From Cryobacterium fucosi (GTDB lineage: Bacteria > Actinomycetota > Actinomycetes > Actinomycetales > Microbacteriaceae), in NCBI RefSeq assembly GCF_004403515.1, contig NZ_SOHH01000053.1, positions 1 to 64,000 of the forward strand: DNA of 64,000 bases, read 5' to 3'. Under the pieces are notes generated by a model. The model saw only the letters and a program-made list of their open reading frames with translations. It was not told the origin of the DNA and searched no databases. A program made the translations under genes and the position numbers. This document shows, piece after piece, positions 4,466 through 13,255 of this stretch (position 1 is its first letter; each line of letters starts with the position of its first letter).

Positions 4466-4683
4466 GCAGCCCATTGACTGCATCCGCATTCTAAGTCGCG
4501 GGACCGCCCGGACTTGTATCAAGCTAGACAGCGATCTCACCTTCGATCTCGACACGCACCCTCTCAGCGACCTACGAATTGGGTTTTTGTCAGACGCCTC
4601 CGTTAGTGTGTCAATCACCAGTCCCCCCGCCGCCTCTCCACGATGCGCCCTGCGGGGGTCCTTTTTACCCTCAGGCAAACTAC

Positions 4684-5655
4684 ATGACCCAAGAACGCCC
4701 ATACCTCACGCCGGATCAGCGTGCTGCGTACCTCGTCCGCCGCGGCTACATCGAAGCCGGCGAGCTGAGCGACGAGGCCAAGGCGTTTCTGGGTCGCACC
4801 AACTTCCACTACTTCCTGGGCTACGCGCGCAACTTTCGGAAGCTGCGCCGCGACGGGCTCATCGAGGGCGACGACCGCATCGACCGTGTCATCGAGATGG
4901 TGAAGCTCGACCACGAAGTATCCACTCGGTTGTTCGCGTCGCTCAGAACGCTCGAGTGGCGTCTGCGCTCCGCTCTCGTCGATCACCACTGCGTCCTTTC
5001 CCCACCGACGGGATGTTTCCTGAAGTCGGATCACTTCACGGTGATGGCCGCCGAGGCGGCACCGGTCGACGTCATCCTGCGCGATCAGATCGCCCGCTCC
5101 CGCGAGCCCTTCGTGCTCGGCGTCTTCGAGGCCCACGAGAAGGCCAACGGTCGTCGCTGGCTGGAGAGCCCGCGCAAGATGACCGAAGCCAACCGCCTCG
5201 CCGCCATGCAGGACCTACCGATCTGGGCTGCCGTCGATGGGTGGACGCTGGGGCTCCTCGAACGGGTCGTCACCGAGACGAAGCCGGTCTTGATCGACAA
5301 AGAGCAACGCTGGCTGTGGAAGGACGTCGCCGGCACGTTCAGCGTGAGCAACCAGCTGTTCCAGACGCAGCTGAACAGCCTGATCGTTCTCCGCAACCTC
5401 GTGGCGCACCACTCGCGTCTTTGGATGCGTCCGACGACGGTATCGCCGAAGAAGCCGAAGGTTTATGAGAAGGTCTCGCGCGACGCCGACGCCAAGTCGA
5501 TGTACGTCCTATGGCTGACCCTGGCCTCGTTCCTGCGCGCCGGCGGAGGCGATCGTGAGCTGATCGACGATCTCGATGCACTGATTAGTCGCGATCCGCT
5601 TTACGAACGCGGCGTCAAGCAGCCTCTCGGGTCGGCCGAACTAGCTGCGCGATGA
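4684..5655 (+). CDS. Abi_2 family (AbiD/AbiF-type) abortive infection protein
   Basis: 323 residues. The N-terminal half has FHYFLGYARNFRKL and an acidic helix followed by LRTLEWRLRSALVDHHC, as in Abi_2. Near residue 240 is RNLVAHHSRLW, the conserved Arg-x4-His HEPN ribonuclease motif of this family. Abi_2 proteins are thought to cleave RNA and stop growth on phage infection (family knowledge; not tested here). I chose ATG 4684 because family members start with a short MT-x-FLT-like lead; an in-frame ATG at 4579 is possible but adds a non-family-like segment. It is a lone gene with no antitoxin-like partner visible beside it. Confidence 0.85.
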   Translation: MTQERPYLTPDQRAAYLVRRGYIEAGELSDEAKAFLGRTNFHYFLGYARNFRKLRRDGLIEGDDRIDRVIEMVKLDHEVSTRLFASLRTLEWRLRSALVDHHCVLSPPTGCFLKSDHFTVMAAEAAPVDVILRDQIARSREPFVLGVFEAHEKANGRRWLESPRKMTEANRLAAMQDLPIWAAVDGWTLGLLERVVTETKPVLIDKEQRWLWKDVAGTFSVSNQLFQTQLNSLIVLRNLVAHHSRLWMRPTTVSPKKPKVYEKVSRDADAKSMYVLWLTLASFLRAGGGDRELIDDLDALISRDPLYERGVKQPLGSAELAAR

Positions 5656-6076: not shown

Positions 6077-7438
6077 CTATAGGAGACCCAGTCGGTGATC
6101 ACCTTCGCCGACTCTCGCCTCAAACCGGCAGTAAGTGCCTGTGTCATAGCGGAGCGCTTCCTGGACGTGGGGACCGAGAAGGTATCGCTGAGGCAGCGGC
6201 GCGCCCTCCCCGCCGGGTCCAACGACGAGGCTCACGAACTGGGCAAGCTGGCCGGCGCTGACGCTGCCGGCGAGGATCGCCGCGTTCTGCCGTTGTCGGG
6301 GACCTCCGCCGGCGCGCTTGATGTACTCAGGATCATCGGCAAGGCCGAGACGCTCTTTCTGTACCTCACCCATGTCTAGCTGGCGGTTGCACTGCAAACA
6401 GGGCAGTCCCGGTGTTGCAGTCTGCACACGCCAAGTTGCTCCGCGCATGGTTCCATCATCAAACACGTCGATTCCGATGCCCCCGTCGATCACCGGGATC
6501 AGGTCGCTGTAGGCGATCTGGTTCAGCATGGCGCGAGGCCATGCGCGGTCGACGCACGAGAATACAACGTCGTAGTCGCGGGCGATGGCGATGCCCTCCT
6601 CGGTGGTGACGCTTGAGACGTACGCCGCGAAGTCGGCCTTCAACGCTGTCGATGCTGAATTCATGAGGCGTGTGGCGACCGCGGCCTTCGGCGTTCGCGC
6701 AGCTGCGTCCGCGCGCGTGGCGCCGATCATGCGATCGAGGTTGACGTCTTCGACGTAATCCATATCCATTGCGCCGACGTGGGTTAGGCCGGTCGCTGCG
6801 AGCCGGGTTGCTACATCTAGGCCGACACTGCCGACGCCCACGACGAGAACGCGAAGCCGCGCGATGTCGTCTTGGGCGGCCGCTCCCCAAGCGGAGACTG
6901 TGCGGTCCTGGTATGCCGTGGCGGCCGCCGAGGGTCGCGCACTGTTGTTCCAGGAGATTCGTAGTGACCGTCCGACGGTACGTACACTCTCTGTCCAGGT
7001 CGGTTCCTTGGCACCGAGCCAAGTGCGGGCGGACCAGCTTGTGTCAATGCCGGCGAGGGTGAGGCCGATGAGCGGGTTGCCGGTGAGGCCGAGGACGAGG
7101 TCAGCGTAGGAACTTTCGGCGTCCCGGTCCCAACGGCTGAGTCCCTGCCATCCACGGCCGTCCGGGTGCGAGTGCAGCAAAGCAATTCCTTCGTTGCGTG
7201 ACGCGGCGATGTTGGCGGCACGGAGCACGTAGTCGCCGGTGAAGCTCGCGTTGCCGTGCACTTCTCGCTCACCAGGCTCGGGAAGCAGGATGGATGTCAG
7301 GAGATAGCTGATTCGGGTAGCACCGCTGGAGATTGAATAAGTGGCGAAGCAGAGGTCTTCGTCGCCGTCGTCGCGGATGAGATGCGTTCGGAGGGCATCC
7401 GCTATGTGGGTGGTCATAGCGACGGAGTGGCGGGGCAT
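6077..7438 (-). CDS. JAB/MPN peptidase - E1-like (ThiF) fusion protein
   Basis: 453 residues. Residues ~10-115 form a JAB/MPN metallopeptidase domain with the zinc motif HSHP...SRWD (His89, His91, Ser101, Asp104). Residues ~175-440 form an E1/ThiF adenylation domain: GVGSVG at 201-206, then MDMDYVEDVNLDR (the Asp and Arg that bind ATP) and VVFSCVDR. A CLQC pair (Cys347, Cys350) may hold a structural zinc or the thioester cysteine. In one chain it could therefore deconjugate (JAB) and activate (E1) the ubiquitin-like protein encoded two genes upstream. Its ATG lies 1 nt after the stop of the E2-like gene. JAB-E1 fusions are known from bacterial ubiquitin-like operons; substrates here are unknown. 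Confidence 0.9.
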   Translation of the reverse strand: MPRHSVAMTTHIADALRTHLIRDDGDEDLCFATYSISSGATRISYLLTSILLPEPGEREVHGNASFTGDYVLRAANIAASRNEGIALLHSHPDGRGWQGLSRWDRDAESSYADLVLGLTGNPLIGLTLAGIDTSWSARTWLGAKEPTWTESVRTVGRSLRISWNNSARPSAAATAYQDRTVSAWGAAAQDDIARLRVLVVGVGSVGLDVATRLAATGLTHVGAMDMDYVEDVNLDRMIGATRADAAARTPKAAVATRLMNSASTALKADFAAYVSSVTTEEGIAIARDYDVVFSCVDRAWPRAMLNQIAYSDLIPVIDGGIGIDVFDDGTMRGATWRVQTATPGLPCLQCNRQLDMGEVQKERLGLADDPEYIKRAGGGPRQRQNAAILAGSVSAGQLAQFVSLVVGPGGEGAPLPQRYLLGPHVQEALRYDTGTYCRFEARVGEGDHRLGLL

Positions 7439-7439
7439 G

Positions 7440-7808
7440 TCAGATCACCTTCGCGATAACGGATCGCACGTGGGCAATCCAGAGCTGGCCGGGGTGCTCA
7501 GTGGGTAGCCAGAAGCTGGTGTCCCATGAGTGGCGGATGTATCCCGGTAGGGCATCGTTCGTGTCGGTGCTGCCCTGTTGCGAAAACTGGGTGCCGGCCT
7601 CGAAATGGAGCCAGTGCGCCGGGACGGCGGGCCATGAGCCCAGCTCATGGATGCTGACACCAGTTCGGATTGAGGTGCCGGCTCGGGAGCCGTCAAGGAT
7701 ATCCAGGTCGTACAGCACGGAAGGACCTTCTCGCCATGCCTTTAGCTCGAAGTCGCCGAGATCGGCGATGAATCCGTCGACGCCATCCCGAGTCGGTCGC
7801 GGATCCAC
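7440..7808 (-). CDS. E2-like (prokaryotic E2 family E-type) protein without cysteine
   Basis: 122 residues from a GTG that overlaps the stop of the ubiquitin-like gene by one base (TAGTG), implying translational coupling. The C-terminal half contains HWLHFEAGTQF, a central GYIRHSWD and a final PGQLWIAHVRSVI, resembling the W-x-W-SRH / L-x-x-V pattern of prokaryotic E2 family E proteins found between ubiquitin-like and E1 genes. No cysteine occurs anywhere, so it cannot act as a canonical thioester-forming E2. It may be an adaptor, or the E1 may transfer directly. Assignment rests on position plus limited motif likeness. Confidence 0.6.
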   Translation of the reverse strand: MDPRPTRDGVDGFIADLGDFELKAWREGPSVLYDLDILDGSRAGTSIRTGVSIHELGSWPAVPAHWLHFEAGTQFSQQGSTDTNDALPGYIRHSWDTSFWLPTEHPGQLWIAHVRSVIAKVI

Positions 7809-8050
7809 TAACCGACCGTCGCGTTCTGCCGGACGGTGAAGAACGCGTCGCCGTCGTTGATCTCGACGACCTTGCCGTCGTTTATCGTCTTGGTCTCCCC
7901 GTCCTTCTTCTTGCGGGCGAGATCGTACTGGCTCGGGTCTACGCCGGCGAGCCGCAGAAGTGAGGCGGCCTCCTGGTGGTCGTCGCGGGTCGTGTACTCC
8001 TTGCCGTCGATGGTGAAGTGGATCAGCTTGCGCTTCTCGTTCTCGGACAT
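7808..8050 (-). CDS. ubiquitin-like beta-grasp protein (multiubiquitin family)
   Basis: 80 residues. The pattern IHFTIDGKEYTTRDDHQEAA, then LLRLAGVDPSQYDL, then GKVVEINDGDAFFTV matches the single repeat of the bacterial multiubiquitin domain. Only one repeat is present, although many family members carry several. It ends ...NATVG with a free C-terminal glycine, so no processing is needed before adenylation. AGAGAAAG lies about 8 nt before the ATG. It is the first gene of the conjugation cassette, 70 bp after the peptidase gene, and has its own promoter-like boxes. Confidence 0.85.
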   Translation of the reverse strand: MSENEKRKLIHFTIDGKEYTTRDDHQEAASLLRLAGVDPSQYDLARKKKDGETKTINDGKVVEINDGDAFFTVRQNATVG

Positions 8051-8097
8051 GTTGCTGCTTTCTCTTGGTGAGAACTCCCAATGAGCCCTTCACCTCG

Positions 8098-8125
8098 TAG
8101 TCGACACAGCCCTAGATTCGTTAGC
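8098..8125 (-). promoter_or_regulatory. putative ECF promoter P2 for the ubiquitin-like cassette
   Basis: Read on the minus strand: -35 box GCTAAC (8125-8120), a 16-bp spacer and -10 box CGACTA (8103-8098), about 47 nt from the ATG at 8050. The stretch GGCTGTGTCGACTAC differs at one base from GGCTGTATCGACTAC upstream of the sigma factor gene. The TAA stop of the peptidase gene lies inside the -35 box. Confidence 0.7.
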
Positions 8126-9122
8126 GACAGTCCACACACACGCCATCCACGACGAGCGCTGCTCCCTTGAGAAGGCCGCACTCGGTGCAAAGGCCCGTGC
8201 TTTGGCGGTTGCACTTGCATTGTCCACAAATGGGGCAAAACGGCTGACGACAAGTCGAACACGGGTATCCCTGAATCCACTTGTCTTGTCCGCAGCAGAC
8301 CAGATGGAGGTGGGGGCGAGCGTCGTAGGCCCGGAGGATGCTCAGGTGGCTTGCTTCGCTGCTCCAGAGATCTCGGTCTGAAAAAATCGCAACGACTGTG
8401 TTGGCCTGCCCCGACGCGTTCGCGTAGAACTCGGCGTCATCGCCCCAAGGCATACGCCACCGAATGCGCTTCACGGCCTCAGCGCCCGGGGCAACTGAAA
8501 ACAGCGGGTGGGCTAATGCGGATTGTCCGCGCCAGGGGTACACCTTTGGCCAGCCCTCGATGGGATCCGGCTGGACGCTGGCGTGACGGACGACGCTCTC
8601 CTCGCGATCGAACACGACGACGGCGCCAAGTCCGGGGAGCCGACGAGCGAGCGCAATGGCACTTGCGTGAAGGCTGGCGTTGGAGCGATCGAACAACTCA
8701 ACTAGGTGAGTTGCTCGGATCACGTCTTTGGAAACCACTGCTTCAATCAGGGAGCTTGGCACGAGTAGCTCTTGTGCAACCGCGTCGCAGACGGTCTCAA
8801 GCAACGGATGAGGGTTGTCCTGCTCGGCCAGCATGTCCTGGAATTTGTCGTCAAGCTCAAGAAGGTGATGGGCCAACTCATGCGCAAGGGTAAAGTTCTG
8901 TCGCCTGGACACCGTCGGCGAGTAGAGGATGACGCCGTCTGCGAGGAAAGAGACGCCATCGCAGCTGCCCATGCCTTCTCGACGCTCGCCGAGGTGTGGC
9001 GCAGGTTGCACCTGCAAGCCAAAGTCTTGGGTCAGTGATCCAAGCGGGTCAGCGGCGAACGATGCGCGCAACGCGGGGCTCACGCGATAAACAGCACGCT
9101 TGACCCAGCCGGAAGTGTTCAT
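8121..9122 (-). CDS. ImmA/IrrE-type metallopeptidase with C-terminal zinc-ribbon cluster
   Basis: 333 residues. Residues ~20-170 resemble ImmA/IrrE peptidases: LAHELAHHLLELD gives zinc ligands His81 and His85 with Glu82, followed by CDAVAQELLVPSSL, the usual downstream acidic helix. Residues ~275-333 are an unusual Cys-rich tail (CCGQ, CSTC, CPIC, CKC, CTEC, CVDC), likely two zinc ribbons. ImmA-type enzymes cleave a partner transcription regulator in response to DNA damage or phage; the partner here is probably the XRE-like protein whose gene overlaps by 4 nt. The tail could sense metal, redox state or nucleic acid (inference). Confidence 0.85.
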   Translation of the reverse strand: MNTSGWVKRAVYRVSPALRASFAADPLGSLTQDFGLQVQPAPHLGERREGMGSCDGVSFLADGVILYSPTVSRRQNFTLAHELAHHLLELDDKFQDMLAEQDNPHPLLETVCDAVAQELLVPSSLIEAVVSKDVIRATHLVELFDRSNASLHASAIALARRLPGLGAVVVFDREESVVRHASVQPDPIEGWPKVYPWRGQSALAHPLFSVAPGAEAVKRIRWRMPWGDDAEFYANASGQANTVVAIFSDRDLWSSEASHLSILRAYDARPHLHLVCCGQDKWIQGYPCSTCRQPFCPICGQCKCNRQSTGLCTECGLLKGAALVVDGVCVDCR

Positions 9123-9739
9123 CGGTCTTCGCGAGGCTCCAGTGTCGAAACAAAGGCATCAAGCGATTCAAGCAGGGCCTCCGTTTCTGGACGATCGCCT
9201 CGGTTAACGGTCGCAAGCAGACGCGATTCGAGCATCGAAGAGGCCGCCGGTAGGGATAGCGACTTCAGTCTCGCCCACCGCTCCGACAGATCGGCGAATT
9301 TGCGTGTTGCGGCGGCCGCGATTAGCCACTCGGGCTTGGTGGGCGTTCGATCGATGATCGCTCCAAGATCGGTACCAAGTTCATCTGCAACGGCGGCGAG
9401 CAGCCCCGGAGTCAAGTCGGTTGGAGCATGTGTCTGCCATCGCGTGACGTCCGCTGCGCTGATCTGCCAGCCGCGATCACGGAGCTTGGCCGCCAAGGCA
9501 CTGGGGGCTAGCCCGGAATTCCTGCGTGCAGTCGTGAAGGCGCGACTTGAAAGGGCCACAGCCGGATCGACAATCAGGCCTAGCATAGCGGCAACTGGAT
9601 CACGTTCGAGCGGCGGCACTGCATCGTTGAGCCGAAGAAGCTCCGCGACCTCTAGGAGTTCTCGGGTGTCCTCGTCCCACGACTCGCTTGGGGCAGCGCC
9701 GGACAAGGCCGCCTCGACGCGCTCGCTCGGATCGGTCAT
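9119..9739 (-). CDS. XRE-like HTH regulator, probable ImmA target
   Basis: 206 residues. A helix-turn-helix spans residues ~70-125 (ARRNSGLAPSALAAKLRDRG, then VTRWQTHAPTDLTPGLLAAV). The flanks are helical and acidic. It overlaps the sigma gene upstream and the peptidase gene downstream by 4 nt each, so the three proteins are probably made in fixed ratio. By analogy with ImmR/ImmA pairs, or with anti-sigma regulation, it could hold the sigma factor or promoter off until cleaved. No membrane segment is present, so it is not a classical transmembrane anti-sigma factor. Confidence 0.7.
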   Translation of the reverse strand: MTDPSERVEAALSGAAPSESWDEDTRELLEVAELLRLNDAVPPLERDPVAAMLGLIVDPAVALSSRAFTTARRNSGLAPSALAAKLRDRGWQISAADVTRWQTHAPTDLTPGLLAAVADELGTDLGAIIDRTPTKPEWLIAAAATRKFADLSERWARLKSLSLPAASSMLESRLLATVNRGDRPETEALLESLDAFVSTLEPREDR

Positions 9740-10254
9740 GCTGCATCCTCATCAACAAGCGCCTCACGCAGTTTCGAAAGCGCGGCGGTGACTATCTGAC
9801 TGACACGAGCTGGCGACACTCCGAGGTCGGCGGCAACAGCATCGCGGGACTCCTCTCGAAGTACTCGCCTCACGAGTACCTGGCCCTCTCGATCCGTGAG
9901 CACATCCATTGCCTTCTCCAGTTTTTGCACCCTGCGCAGAAGGTCGATAGCTTCAACGGCCTCCCCGGGAGTCTGGTCTCCGCTCTCCGGCTGCAGTTCG
10001 GGCGCCAAAGAGCCCCCATGATGCCGCTCAGGGGCGGAGCCGACTATGTCGAGCGCCCGTAGCTTGGCGGCGTTTACCATCATTGCCTCCCAGTTCACGA
10101 CGTCTGCCGGTGGGTTCTTCATCAACGATTCCATCGCATTTTGCACAGCGTCCTCCGCAAGATCACTTCGCCGGAGGATCGAAAGCGCAACGAGGTACAT
10201 CGGTCGACGGTGAGCCAAGTACAGCGGACCCCAGTCCGGTTTCGTTGGTGGCAT
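9736..10254 (-). CDS. ECF-type RNA polymerase sigma factor
   Basis: 172 residues. Region 2 is near residues 15-60 (MYLVALSILRRSDLAEDAVQ), and region 4 is near residues 115-165 (LTDREGQVLVRRVLREESRD, then VSPARVSQIVTAALSKLREA). No sigma-1 or sigma-3 region. Gene order sigma - XRE - peptidase - ubiquitin-like cassette, together with matching promoter boxes before both the sigma gene and the cassette, indicates that it activates its own operon and the conjugation genes. The trigger is not visible. Confidence 0.85.
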   Translation of the reverse strand: MPPTKPDWGPLYLAHRRPMYLVALSILRRSDLAEDAVQNAMESLMKNPPADVVNWEAMMVNAAKLRALDIVGSAPERHHGGSLAPELQPESGDQTPGEAVEAIDLLRRVQKLEKAMDVLTDREGQVLVRRVLREESRDAVAADLGVSPARVSQIVTAALSKLREALVDEDAA

Positions 10255-10552
10255 TCGCTCTCAGTCCTCGACGCGACCGGGGTGTCGCGTCTCACGGTGT
10301 AGTCGATACAGCCACCAATGTTGTTAGCGGCTCCCCTAAAGTCGTCGCCTAAATCATCCACCCGGGGTAATCGCACCGCACCCCGACACGCGGGTCCGAG
10401 TGTTTCACGCCAAGTGAGATATGCCAGAAGCGCCCTCCAGCAATGCGGCCCCTTCGACACTCCGCCTCGTATGCACCACGTGAAGCCCAACCTGAATGGA
10501 CGTATGCTACCGTAGGTAGTTGCAAGAACCTGAGCCAGCTCGGAGGTTTGCG
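10255..10552. other. divergent promoter region, possible oriT
   Basis: 300 bp between the sigma operon (minus) and the relaxase gene (plus). It contains P1. Position directly upstream of a MobF relaxase makes it the natural place for the origin of transfer, but I cannot identify a nic site or a clear hairpin. Confidence 0.4.
10300..10328 (-). promoter_or_regulatory. putative ECF promoter P1 for the sigma operon
   Basis: Minus strand: -35 box GCTAAC (10328-10323), a 17-bp spacer and -10 box CGACTA (10305-10300), about 45 nt before the sigma ATG at 10254. Both boxes and 14 of 15 bases around the -10 match P2. This is the arrangement expected for an autoregulated ECF sigma factor. Confidence 0.7.
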
Positions 10553-13255
10553 ATGAAGGGCGGCGTGATCCTGTTCCGGGGGTCCGGGGCAGACGCGCGC
10601 CGTTACCTAGAGTCGGATCGATCGCGCGCCGACGAGTACGACCTCGACGGCGGGACAGCCCTCGCCGAGTTCTCCGTCGTCGACGGTGATGGCGAGATGA
10701 TCGGCGAAGGCGCGCTCACCCCAGGCGAGTACGCGCAGTGGGTCGACTGGATCAACCCTCTCACCACCGAGTCGATGGGCAAGCCGCGGCTATCGGGAGG
10801 CGGCCGGCAAGGATCGCCGCGGTTCGCCGAGATGGTCGTGAATGCGCCGAAGTCACTGTCGATCGCCGCGGCCCTGCACCCGGCGGTATCCGAAGCGCTC
10901 GACTCCGCGCAGCGCGACGCAGTCGCCGAGATCCGGTCCTGGATCGGCGAGCATTCCGTCACCCGCGTTGGCCCGCGGGGAAGTCAACGATTGGTGCCCG
11001 TGGAGCAGTTGGAGACGGTCGCCGTCTCGCACAAAACCTCGCGGGCCGGTGACCCGCACCGACACATGCACTTCCAGATCGGGACGCGCGTGTGGGCAGC
11101 CGGCGCCTGGCGTGGGCTCGACACCGCGGCGCTGTTCCGTCAGCAGGGCCCGATCCGATCGCTGGGCACCGCCATCATCGCCGCACACCCGCAACTCGCA
11201 GCCGTCCTCAACGACCACGGCCTCACCCTCGACCCCGTGACCGGAGAAGTCGCGGAGCTGCAGCCCTTCAACGCCGTGATGAGCAAGCGAGCCGAGCAGG
11301 TCGCGCGCAATCTCACGCACTTCGAGAAGGAGTGGCGCACGGCGCATCACGACCAGGAGCCTGGCCCGGCTGCAATGTCGCGGCTGATCGCGATGGCGTG
11401 GGATCACGAGCGGCCGCACAAGCGACCGACCGCGCTCGGCAACGAGGCGGCATGGCGTGCAGAGCTCGAGAACGCCGGCTACCGCTCCGACCTCGAGCGC
11501 GCGCCGGCGCATGCGTCGGTCTCGCTGGACGAGGTAAGCGTTCGGGATGTCGCATCGCGCGCGCTCGACCGCTGCGCAGCTGCGGCATCGACGTGGACGG
11601 CGCACGACATCCAGGAGCACGTAACGCGCATCATCACGCAGGCCGGCGTGCGGGCCGACCCCGAACCGCTGCGCGCACTGGTTACGCTCACGACGCGGCT
11701 GGCTGCGGACGATTGCCTGTCAGTCCTACCGCCCGACAGCGCGAATCCTGAGCACGTCGCGCACCTCACGAGTTTGCACGTCATCGCCTCCGAGACCCGA
11801 CTGCGCGACCTGATCACGGCACGTGCCGCGTACGCCGGCCGGGGCCACGCACCGAACCTGATGCATGTCGCGCGCCGCCTCCGGCTCGACCCGGCGCAGG
11901 CACGAGCAGCCGCCGCAGTGGCATCCAGCGATCCGCTCGTGGTCGTTGAAGGCGCTGCCGGCGCGGGCAAGACGACGATGCTCGCCGCCGTGATCGAGGC
12001 CGCCGCTGCTCACGGCCGGACGACGCGGGTGATCACGCCGACGAAGAAGGCGGCCGACGTCGCGCAGCAGGAACTCGGCGTTGCAACCGACAGTGTCGCG
12101 AAGCTCGTGCACGATCACGGCTGGCGCTGGAATCGCGACGACGTCTGGACCCGGTTCGCCGTCGGAGAAACCGACCCCGAGACCGGCGCCCGCTACATGG
12201 GCCCGGCGGCGGCCGCGCGGCTCGTGCGCGGCGAGCGGATCGTCGTGGATGAAGCTGGCATGCTCGACCAGGACACAGCGCTGGCGCTCCTCACCCTCGC
12301 GGACGAGCACGGTGCCACCCTCGCCCTGGTCGGCGACCGCGCACAGCTCGCCGCGATCGGCCGCGGCGGCGTGCTTAACATTGCCGCGCAACTCATCCCT
12401 CGCGTGCACAGCCTGACGGCCGTGCATCGTTTCACCGACCCCGCCTACGCCACACTCACCGTGCAGATGCGACGCGCCGAGGCTCCCGCATCGCTGTTCG
12501 ACCGCTTACGCGCACTGGGCCTCGTCGTCCTACATGAGAGCACGGATGCCCTGCTGGAGACGCTCGCGCGTGAGTGGCGCGAGGGAGACGCCATCACCGT
12601 GGCAACAAACGATGAAGCGCGCGAACTGAATGCTCGCATCCGCGGCCAGAGGCTACTCGCCTGCCAAGTTGACGACTGCCGCACCGCGACCGGTCGCGAC
12701 GGTCTCAGCATCGGAGGCGGGGATGTGATCCAGATCCGGCAGAACGACTCCGCTGTGCGCGTCGCGAACCGGCAGACCTGGATCGTGCAGAGCGTGGGCG
12801 ACGACGGCGCGGTGTGGGCGAAGGAACATACCCCGGGTCGGCGACAACGCACTGTGCGGCTGCCAAGGGAGTACGTCGCCGAGCACACCCATCTGGCCTA
12901 CGCCTCGACCGCATTCGGGATGCAGGGAGCCACTGTGCGTGAGTCGGACACGATCCTCGGCGCCGCTATGGATGCAGCAGGCATCTATGTGGGCATGACC
13001 CGCGGACGGAATTCCAACCGCTTGCACCTCGTCGCGGCTGACCAGGGTGATGCGCGGGAGCAGTTCGTTCTCGCGATGGAACGCGACCGCGCCGATCGCG
13101 GGCTCCGCCAAGCCACGGCGTTCGCGCAGGAGTCTGTGCGCGGCCTCGCGACCGGCACGGACAAGCGGCGTCGTGAAGCTCGCCTGCCGGACAGGACCTG
13201 CTTCAGTCGGGACTCCGCGACCCGGCGCACGCCAGAAGTCGGCCTGAGCCGATGA
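10553..13255 (+). CDS. MobF (TrwC/TraA) relaxase-helicase
   Basis: 900 residues. The N-terminal relaxase domain has catalytic-type tyrosines Tyr18 and Tyr29 and the metal-binding HUH triad His160...His171-x-His173 (DPHRHMHFQI). The C-terminal half is a RecD-like helicase: Walker A GAAGAGKTT near residue 467, IVVDEAGMLD (Walker B), LVGDRAQLAAIGRGG, and YVGMTRGR near residue 820. It would nick at oriT, stay covalently bound to the strand and unwind DNA for conjugative transfer. ATG 10553 follows GGAGG by 7 nt. No coupling protein or secretion gene is nearby, so the element is mobilizable rather than self-transmissible. Confidence 0.92.
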   Translation: MKGGVILFRGSGADARRYLESDRSRADEYDLDGGTALAEFSVVDGDGEMIGEGALTPGEYAQWVDWINPLTTESMGKPRLSGGGRQGSPRFAEMVVNAPKSLSIAAALHPAVSEALDSAQRDAVAEIRSWIGEHSVTRVGPRGSQRLVPVEQLETVAVSHKTSRAGDPHRHMHFQIGTRVWAAGAWRGLDTAALFRQQGPIRSLGTAIIAAHPQLAAVLNDHGLTLDPVTGEVAELQPFNAVMSKRAEQVARNLTHFEKEWRTAHHDQEPGPAAMSRLIAMAWDHERPHKRPTALGNEAAWRAELENAGYRSDLERAPAHASVSLDEVSVRDVASRALDRCAAAASTWTAHDIQEHVTRIITQAGVRADPEPLRALVTLTTRLAADDCLSVLPPDSANPEHVAHLTSLHVIASETRLRDLITARAAYAGRGHAPNLMHVARRLRLDPAQARAAAAVASSDPLVVVEGAAGAGKTTMLAAVIEAAAAHGRTTRVITPTKKAADVAQQELGVATDSVAKLVHDHGWRWNRDDVWTRFAVGETDPETGARYMGPAAAARLVRGERIVVDEAGMLDQDTALALLTLADEHGATLALVGDRAQLAAIGRGGVLNIAAQLIPRVHSLTAVHRFTDPAYATLTVQMRRAEAPASLFDRLRALGLVVLHESTDALLETLAREWREGDAITVATNDEARELNARIRGQRLLACQVDDCRTATGRDGLSIGGGDVIQIRQNDSAVRVANRQTWIVQSVGDDGAVWAKEHTPGRRQRTVRLPREYVAEHTHLAYASTAFGMQGATVRESDTILGAAMDAAGIYVGMTRGRNSNRLHLVAADQGDAREQFVLAMERDRADRGLRQATAFAQESVRGLATGTDKRRREARLPDRTCFSRDSATRRTPEVGLSR

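Follow-up and report, generated by a model that had tools for sequence, protein, structure and literature searches.

The silencing of immune operons and their later activation are incompletely understood. The damage-responsive controllers listed so far are CapW/BrxR, CapH+CapP and CapK+CapS, and no sigma factor is described in any of them (PMC13373217, June 2026); CapW, CapH+CapP and CapK+CapS all act through lifted repression. According to the account of Lau et al. 2022 given in PMC13373217, CapH+CapP consists of an XRE-type protein and an M78 peptidase encoded ahead of immune operons, CBASS and Bub among them. Such peptidases cut XRE-type partners, as in CapP/CapH and IrrE/DdrO (PMC13373217, PMC10904395), and CapW or CapH+CapP is found at 219 of 544 Bub operons (PMC13373217).

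In the window (the whole stretch of 64,000 nucleotides of Cryobacterium fucosi DNA analysed here), six minus-strand genes occupy positions 6077-10254 in the order sigma - XRE - ImmA - UBL - E2-like - JAB-E1 (Table 1), as the original prediction had it; UBL denotes the ubiquitin-like protein. The junctions also agree with what had been claimed: the 4-nt overlaps of the first trio are ATGA at both the sigma/XRE and the XRE/ImmA boundaries, which fits a tight stoichiometry, and the 0-1 nt coupling of the last trio consists of a 1-nt UBL/E2 overlap (TAGTG) and a 1-nt E2/E1 gap. The six products are those that had been named, except that Pfam gives no match for the XRE protein and that the E2-like protein has no conserved cysteine. 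This gene order is far beyond chance, and homologous loci show the same order. The sigma/XRE/ImmA block and the UBL/E2/JAB-E1 block are separated by 70 nt (8051-8120) with a predicted promoter inside, which the original prediction did not mention. The locus is best read as two modules: a portable sigma-based controller upstream and a Bub-type ubiquitin-like conjugation cassette downstream, as its cargo.

Table 1. Genes and predicted promoters of the sigma/XRE/ImmA-UBL locus (window coordinates)
Feature	Position	Strand	Basis or remark
Promoter 1 (predicted), CTAAC-N17-CGACTAC	10299..10327	-	44 nt 5' of sigma start codon
ECF-type sigma factor, 172 aa, regions 2 and 4	9736..10254	-	Pfam/TIGR02937
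XRE-type HTH protein, 206 aa	9119..9739	-	AlphaFold model: HTH 60-133, C-terminal helices
M78 (ImmA/IrrE/CapP-like) metallopeptidase, HELAHH residues 81-86	8121..9122	-	12 cysteines in C-terminal domain, last ~60 residues
Promoter 2 (predicted), CTAAC-N16-CGACTAC	8097..8124	-	46 nt 5' of UBL start
Single-domain ubiquitin-like protein (BubA-like), 80 aa, C-terminus -ATVG	7808..8050	-	Multi_ubiq, homologues
E2/UEV-fold protein (BubB-like), 122 aa, no cysteine	7440..7808	-	AlphaFold model
JAB (JAMM)-E1 (ThiF) fusion (BubCD-like), 453 aa	6077..7438	-	ThiF, JAMM motif, BubCD profile match

Directly upstream of the locus, a TrwC/MobF relaxase with helicase is encoded divergently at 10520-13255 (+), and because of this adjoining gene the locus probably lies on a plasmid or other mobile element. 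An Abi_2 family protein (2.9e-19) is encoded at 4579-5655 (+), convergent with the cassette, and in Rhodococcus WAY2 (L036) an Abi family gene likewise lies 3' of the UBL cassette. A phage or viral origin was rejected: the 50,697 phage records searched gave no match, and the viral contigs gave weak M78 matches only, to the peptidase part, and no UBL cassette.

The sigma factor matched Sigma70_r4 (2.4e-10) and, above the cut-off, TIGR02937; the region 2 match was weak in the window copy, and among the relatives Sigma70_r2 was matched in 21 of 23 and Sigma70_r4 in 20 of 23. Two features place it in the ECF group. One is that it contains sigma-70 regions 2 and 4 only (about 20 kDa), and the other is the two-part promoter before its own operon, with an AAC-type -35 and a CG-type -10 element. 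The XRE protein gave no significant match in Pfam, NCBIfam or PADLOC, and its identity as an XRE-type HTH protein rests on an AlphaFold model (22 homologues, mean pLDDT 85) with a predicted XRE DNA-binding domain, for which comparison gave Z 8.3-9.9 to HTH domains including those of CapH and ImmR, SinR and DdrO being close too. Ahead of this domain lies a conserved N-terminal segment, PPLxxDPVAAMLGLVPD, which is a candidate site for sigma binding or for cleavage. The ImmA protein matched Peptidase_M78 above the cut-off (4e-6), carries the HExxH motif as HELAHH, and among the PADLOC profiles matches CapP best (2.6e-15); its 12-cysteine tail is likely a sensor or substrate-binding part. Because a search for an inverted-repeat operator of the XRE protein yielded one local repeat (10270-10291) and nothing matching before the cargo, no XRE operator is claimed.

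The UBL/E2/JAB-E1 cassette is best called Bub-type. The E1 half of the fusion protein matched ThiF (4e-28), and in the JAB half the JAMM motif (HSHP...S..D) is complete and does not vary among 10 homologues. When the E1-JAB profile was compared with PDB, Citrobacter BubCD was matched at 1.9e-27 over 385 positions, and the next protein at 1.6e-11. Since a Prok-JAB Pfam search of the genome missed the window JAB, its identity rests on the JAMM motif and the BubCD match. JAB and E1 are fused in one protein, and not encoded by separate BilC and BilD genes as in the Bil type. The UBL lies just below the Multi_ubiq cut-off (1.8e-4; 22.1 bits versus 24.5), and its C-terminus is -VA or -VG in 10 of 10 homologues, with no Gly-Gly. 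For the E2-like protein, no significant match was found in Pfam, NCBIfam or PADLOC, nor in PDB by sequence. The structures matched by its AlphaFold model (from only 3 sequences, pLDDT 80) are nearly all E2/UEV folds, with BubB at Z 7.5, and on this model the protein would have an E2/UEV fold. It is not a canonical thioester E2, because it has no cysteine and no Cys column is conserved in nine homologues. Protection against phage has so far not been demonstrated for Bub operons (PMC13373217), and an anti-phage role of the window cassette is therefore only presumed.

Matching stretches are found before the sigma gene, GGCTGTATCGACTACACCGTGA, and before the UBL gene, GGCTGTGTCGACTACGAGGTGA. The exact pattern, which was written from these two window sites themselves, gave 2 matches in the window against 0.02 expected, and CTAAC-N14-19-CGACTAC gave exactly 2 matches in the whole 3.44-Mb genome, both at this locus; the reversed control pattern matched 4 times in the same genome. 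A pattern of this length can thus be matched by chance, and it is the relatives that carry the weight. Several features were found in these relatives. One is that, in the 31 loci besides the window that belong to the same branch of triads (the A branch), a slightly relaxed pattern is located before the sigma gene in 27, after ImmA in 27, and at both places in 25. Another is that the site density is 2.2 per kb in these target stretches versus 0.013 elsewhere in the same loci, a difference of about 165-fold. All but 2 of 49 relatives (47) keep the fixed spacing, and the -35 variants co-vary within loci (TAAC/TAAC 19, TAAA/TAAA 4, mixed 0); a CGTCTAC variant is seen in one locus, at both of its sites. 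The last feature is a TGAG element just 3' of the -10, which is conserved in both promoter sets. In the window, the -35 element of Promoter 2 contains the ImmA stop codon. At 13 UBL cassettes without the triad, no such site was found. Judged from these patterns, the paired sites are the hallmark of an ECF sigma factor dedicated to a two-promoter regulon. As originally predicted, transcription of the UBL genes and of the sigma operon itself very probably depends on this sigma factor, since one ECF-type promoter sequence precedes both and is found nowhere else in the genome. This promoter wiring is well supported, and the sigma factor itself would recognize both sites.

The relatives were collected with the peptidase alone, one genome per species (80 loci), and plasmid and genome loci found earlier were added; an initial scan of genome contigs with E1 as the sole query found nothing. 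A sigma-like gene lies upstream in 68 of the 76 loci with a cysteine-rich (or contig-end-truncated) ImmA, two of the eight others being at contig edges, and in 0 of 12 M78 matches without the cysteine-rich tail; these counts are approximate, because genes were called with a simple script and nine of the loci themselves supplied the per-gene profiles, and inflated, because the loci share descent. In an independent draw of 395 class genomes (the window's own included), 15 had this ImmA and 6 this E1 type. These neighbourhoods support the view that sigma, XRE and ImmA act together as a single regulatory unit, which serves Actinomycetota as a modular controller. True sigma factors are encoded in the A branch, to which the window locus belongs. 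The B branch starts with a gene for a protein of some 300-370 aa that is sigma-related only in its C-terminal part (hhalign E 3.9e-6) and matches nothing significantly in Pfam; a different conserved element is present only before the cargo, and no self-promoter matching it was found in B-type loci. Because of this diverged first gene and the element before the cargo only, the feedback is not universal and is claimed for the A branch alone. In many triad loci, the first gene after the cargo promoter encodes a conserved 51-aa basic protein with no Pfam match (MAKNTGxGHRVGAVKxRSEFK...GSPxQHKGVRNEK; L050 9104-9259 and 13 other loci), which is absent from the window. In L050 (9353-9625), L051, L052, L053 and L043, the gene for the 51-aa protein is followed by one for a ~90-aa protein that weakly matches Cas2 (0.0064).

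The genes 3' of the triads cluster into recurring sets. These include patatin, CD-NTase (CBASS cyclase) and Cap2 in Arthrobacter (L050); Cap15 and a cyclase-like gene, of which the former matched Pfam and the latter did not (L053); SAVED-HNH and a cyclase in Mycobacterium triplex (L102); a cyclase and a 1TM effector in Glycomyces (L073); an E1-E2-JAB protein with an MBL-like neighbour (L078) and a set of DUF3892, multiubiquitin, E1 and DUF6527 (L100), both in Streptomyces; and a separate UBL / DUF7665 / JAB operon (L070). When cargo labels were assigned by sequence clustering to checked representatives, the 70 loci of the ImmA tree comprised 23 CBASS-like, 12 DUF6527-type, 7 UBL, 2 MBL, 1 separate-gene UBL and 25 unclassified. 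Since the paired CTAAC-N16/17-CGACTAC sites mark the operon under a given triad, unclassified genes behind such a promoter are candidate defence genes; those behind triad promoters at L044 6469-7380, L055 9416-11212 and L057 6005-6856 (PDC-M36A-like protein, ResIII helicase, HNH protein) are candidates of this kind.

Thirteen UBL cassettes that have this type of E1 but no triad were found in G018, seven plasmid loci and five class-sample genomes. At L035, L036 and L038-L041, a gene for an XRE-M78 fusion or an M78 protein, called HigA or ImmA/IrrE in the annotation, runs divergently from such a cassette and has a small gene next to it; it is apparently a separate CapH-CapP-like regulator. Another sigma-bearing module by UBL cassettes consists of a sigma, an uncharacterized ~290-340 aa protein and a ~615 aa protein, and is located at L042 8690-12209 (Mycobacterium avium plasmid) and L155 from 8822 (genome G157). 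The ~615 aa protein in L042 is a Rad50-like ATPase with a zinc hook, and the module is possibly a second sigma-based controller, tied to DNA-end sensing.

We consider it likely that the locus is a sigma-XRE-M78 controller joined to a Bub-type cargo, in which the XRE protein is cleaved and the freed sigma factor fires its own operon and the cargo from the paired promoters. The gene order, the domains, the paired promoter-like sites, their occurrence only twice in the genome and the cargo swapping support it at the sequence level; the differences of the B branch and the 25 unclassified cargo sets weigh against it. At rest, the XRE protein would hold the system off, either by acting as an anti-sigma factor or by repressing both promoters. 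The trigger would most likely be DNA damage or infection, sensed via the peptidase; by likeness to CapP, ssDNA would be the leading signal, with zinc or redox, which the cysteine-rich domain could sense instead of DNA, as alternatives. ImmA would then cleave or remove the XRE protein, as suggested by CapP/CapH, ImmA/ImmR and IrrE/DdrO; that the XRE fold matches CapH, ImmR and DdrO, all partners of M78 peptidases, is counted in favour of the mechanism. The freed sigma factor would transcribe its own operon, giving positive feedback, and also the cargo, from the two matching CTAAC-N16/17-CGACTAC promoters.

The original prediction had paired this regulator specifically with ubiquitin-like conjugation. 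The six-gene order is indeed also present in Nocardioides QY071, Sinomonas ASV322 (L059) and a Propionibacterium MAG (L066), and a diverged six-gene form in G025 and Mycolicibacterium crocinum. However, two neighbourhood outcomes had been set beforehand as contradicting such a pairing, and the tabulation gave both: most UBL cassettes lack sigma/XRE/ImmA and are under other regulators, often a divergent XRE-ImmA fusion, and most triads carry other cargo, chiefly CBASS and DUF6527-type. On the ImmA tree, cargo type must have changed at least 20 times, and the UBL label 4 times. The specific triad-UBL pairing was rejected on these tables, and a regulator evolved for ubiquitin-like conjugation is extremely unlikely. 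Nor is it at all probable that ImmA and XRE form a toxin-antitoxin or mobile-element maintenance unit that stands beside the cassette by chance: M78/XRE pairs elsewhere are annotated as toxin-antitoxin systems (PMC10538038), the relaxase gene adjoins the locus and several relatives are plasmid-borne, but the paired promoters link the triad with its cargo, immune-type cargo follows the triad in many genera, and chromosomal copies exist.

A plain CapH+CapP controller, in which XRE would be an ordinary repressor at both promoters, cleaved by ImmA, and the sigma factor an accessory activator or a passenger, is unlikely. The HTH domain is CapH-like (Z 8.3), the peptidase is CapP-like, the conserved TGAG element could be an operator, and CapH+CapP is documented beside Bub operons (PMC13373217). 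Nevertheless, the shared promoter is two-part and ECF-type with a constant distance between its parts, which is what a dedicated sigma factor requires, and almost every locus retains the sigma gene. The XRE protein, moreover, has conserved sequence N-terminal to its HTH, whereas in CapH the alignment of the HTH begins at residue 5.

If the sigma-driven mechanism is true, a self-amplifying dedicated sigma factor would provide a logic different from lifted repression, namely an all-or-none switch whose regulon comprises two promoters. On balance, we favour the view that the triad adds a fourth family to the "controllers of associated pathways" and is the first among them to use a sigma factor of its own. 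It would be a switch that is released by the peptidase and amplifies itself, and that Actinomycetota would have plugged into CBASS, Bub, DUF6527, MBL and other immune-type operons. No earlier report of the triad was found in a literature coverage that left out the main CapP and Bub papers, so its novelty is probable, not proven.

As for the cargo, the window cassette resembles Citrobacter BubCD/BubB in having a JAB-E1 fusion and, probably, a UBL and an E2-fold protein, and differs in its single-domain UBL ending in -VG and in its cysteine-free E2, which is too diverged for a PDB sequence match. As for the controller, IrrE(PprI)/DdrO and ImmA/ImmR share the M78 peptidase with an XRE partner, and the XRE model aligns with DdrO and ImmR, but these pairs have no sigma factor and have different targets. 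Like CapW/BrxR and CapK+CapS, the triad is a portable controller before immune operons (e.g. CBASS, Bub, Bil, MBL), while those two, based on WYL and on STAS with a kinase, follow a repressor-only logic with no sigma component described (PMC13373217). CapH+CapP has in common with it an M78 peptidase with HExxH, an adjacent XRE/HTH protein and the placement before immune operons. Unlike CapH+CapP, the window locus is headed by an ECF sigma factor with a matching sigma-type promoter before both operons, its XRE protein has extra N-terminal and C-terminal parts, and its peptidase ends in the 12-cysteine domain.
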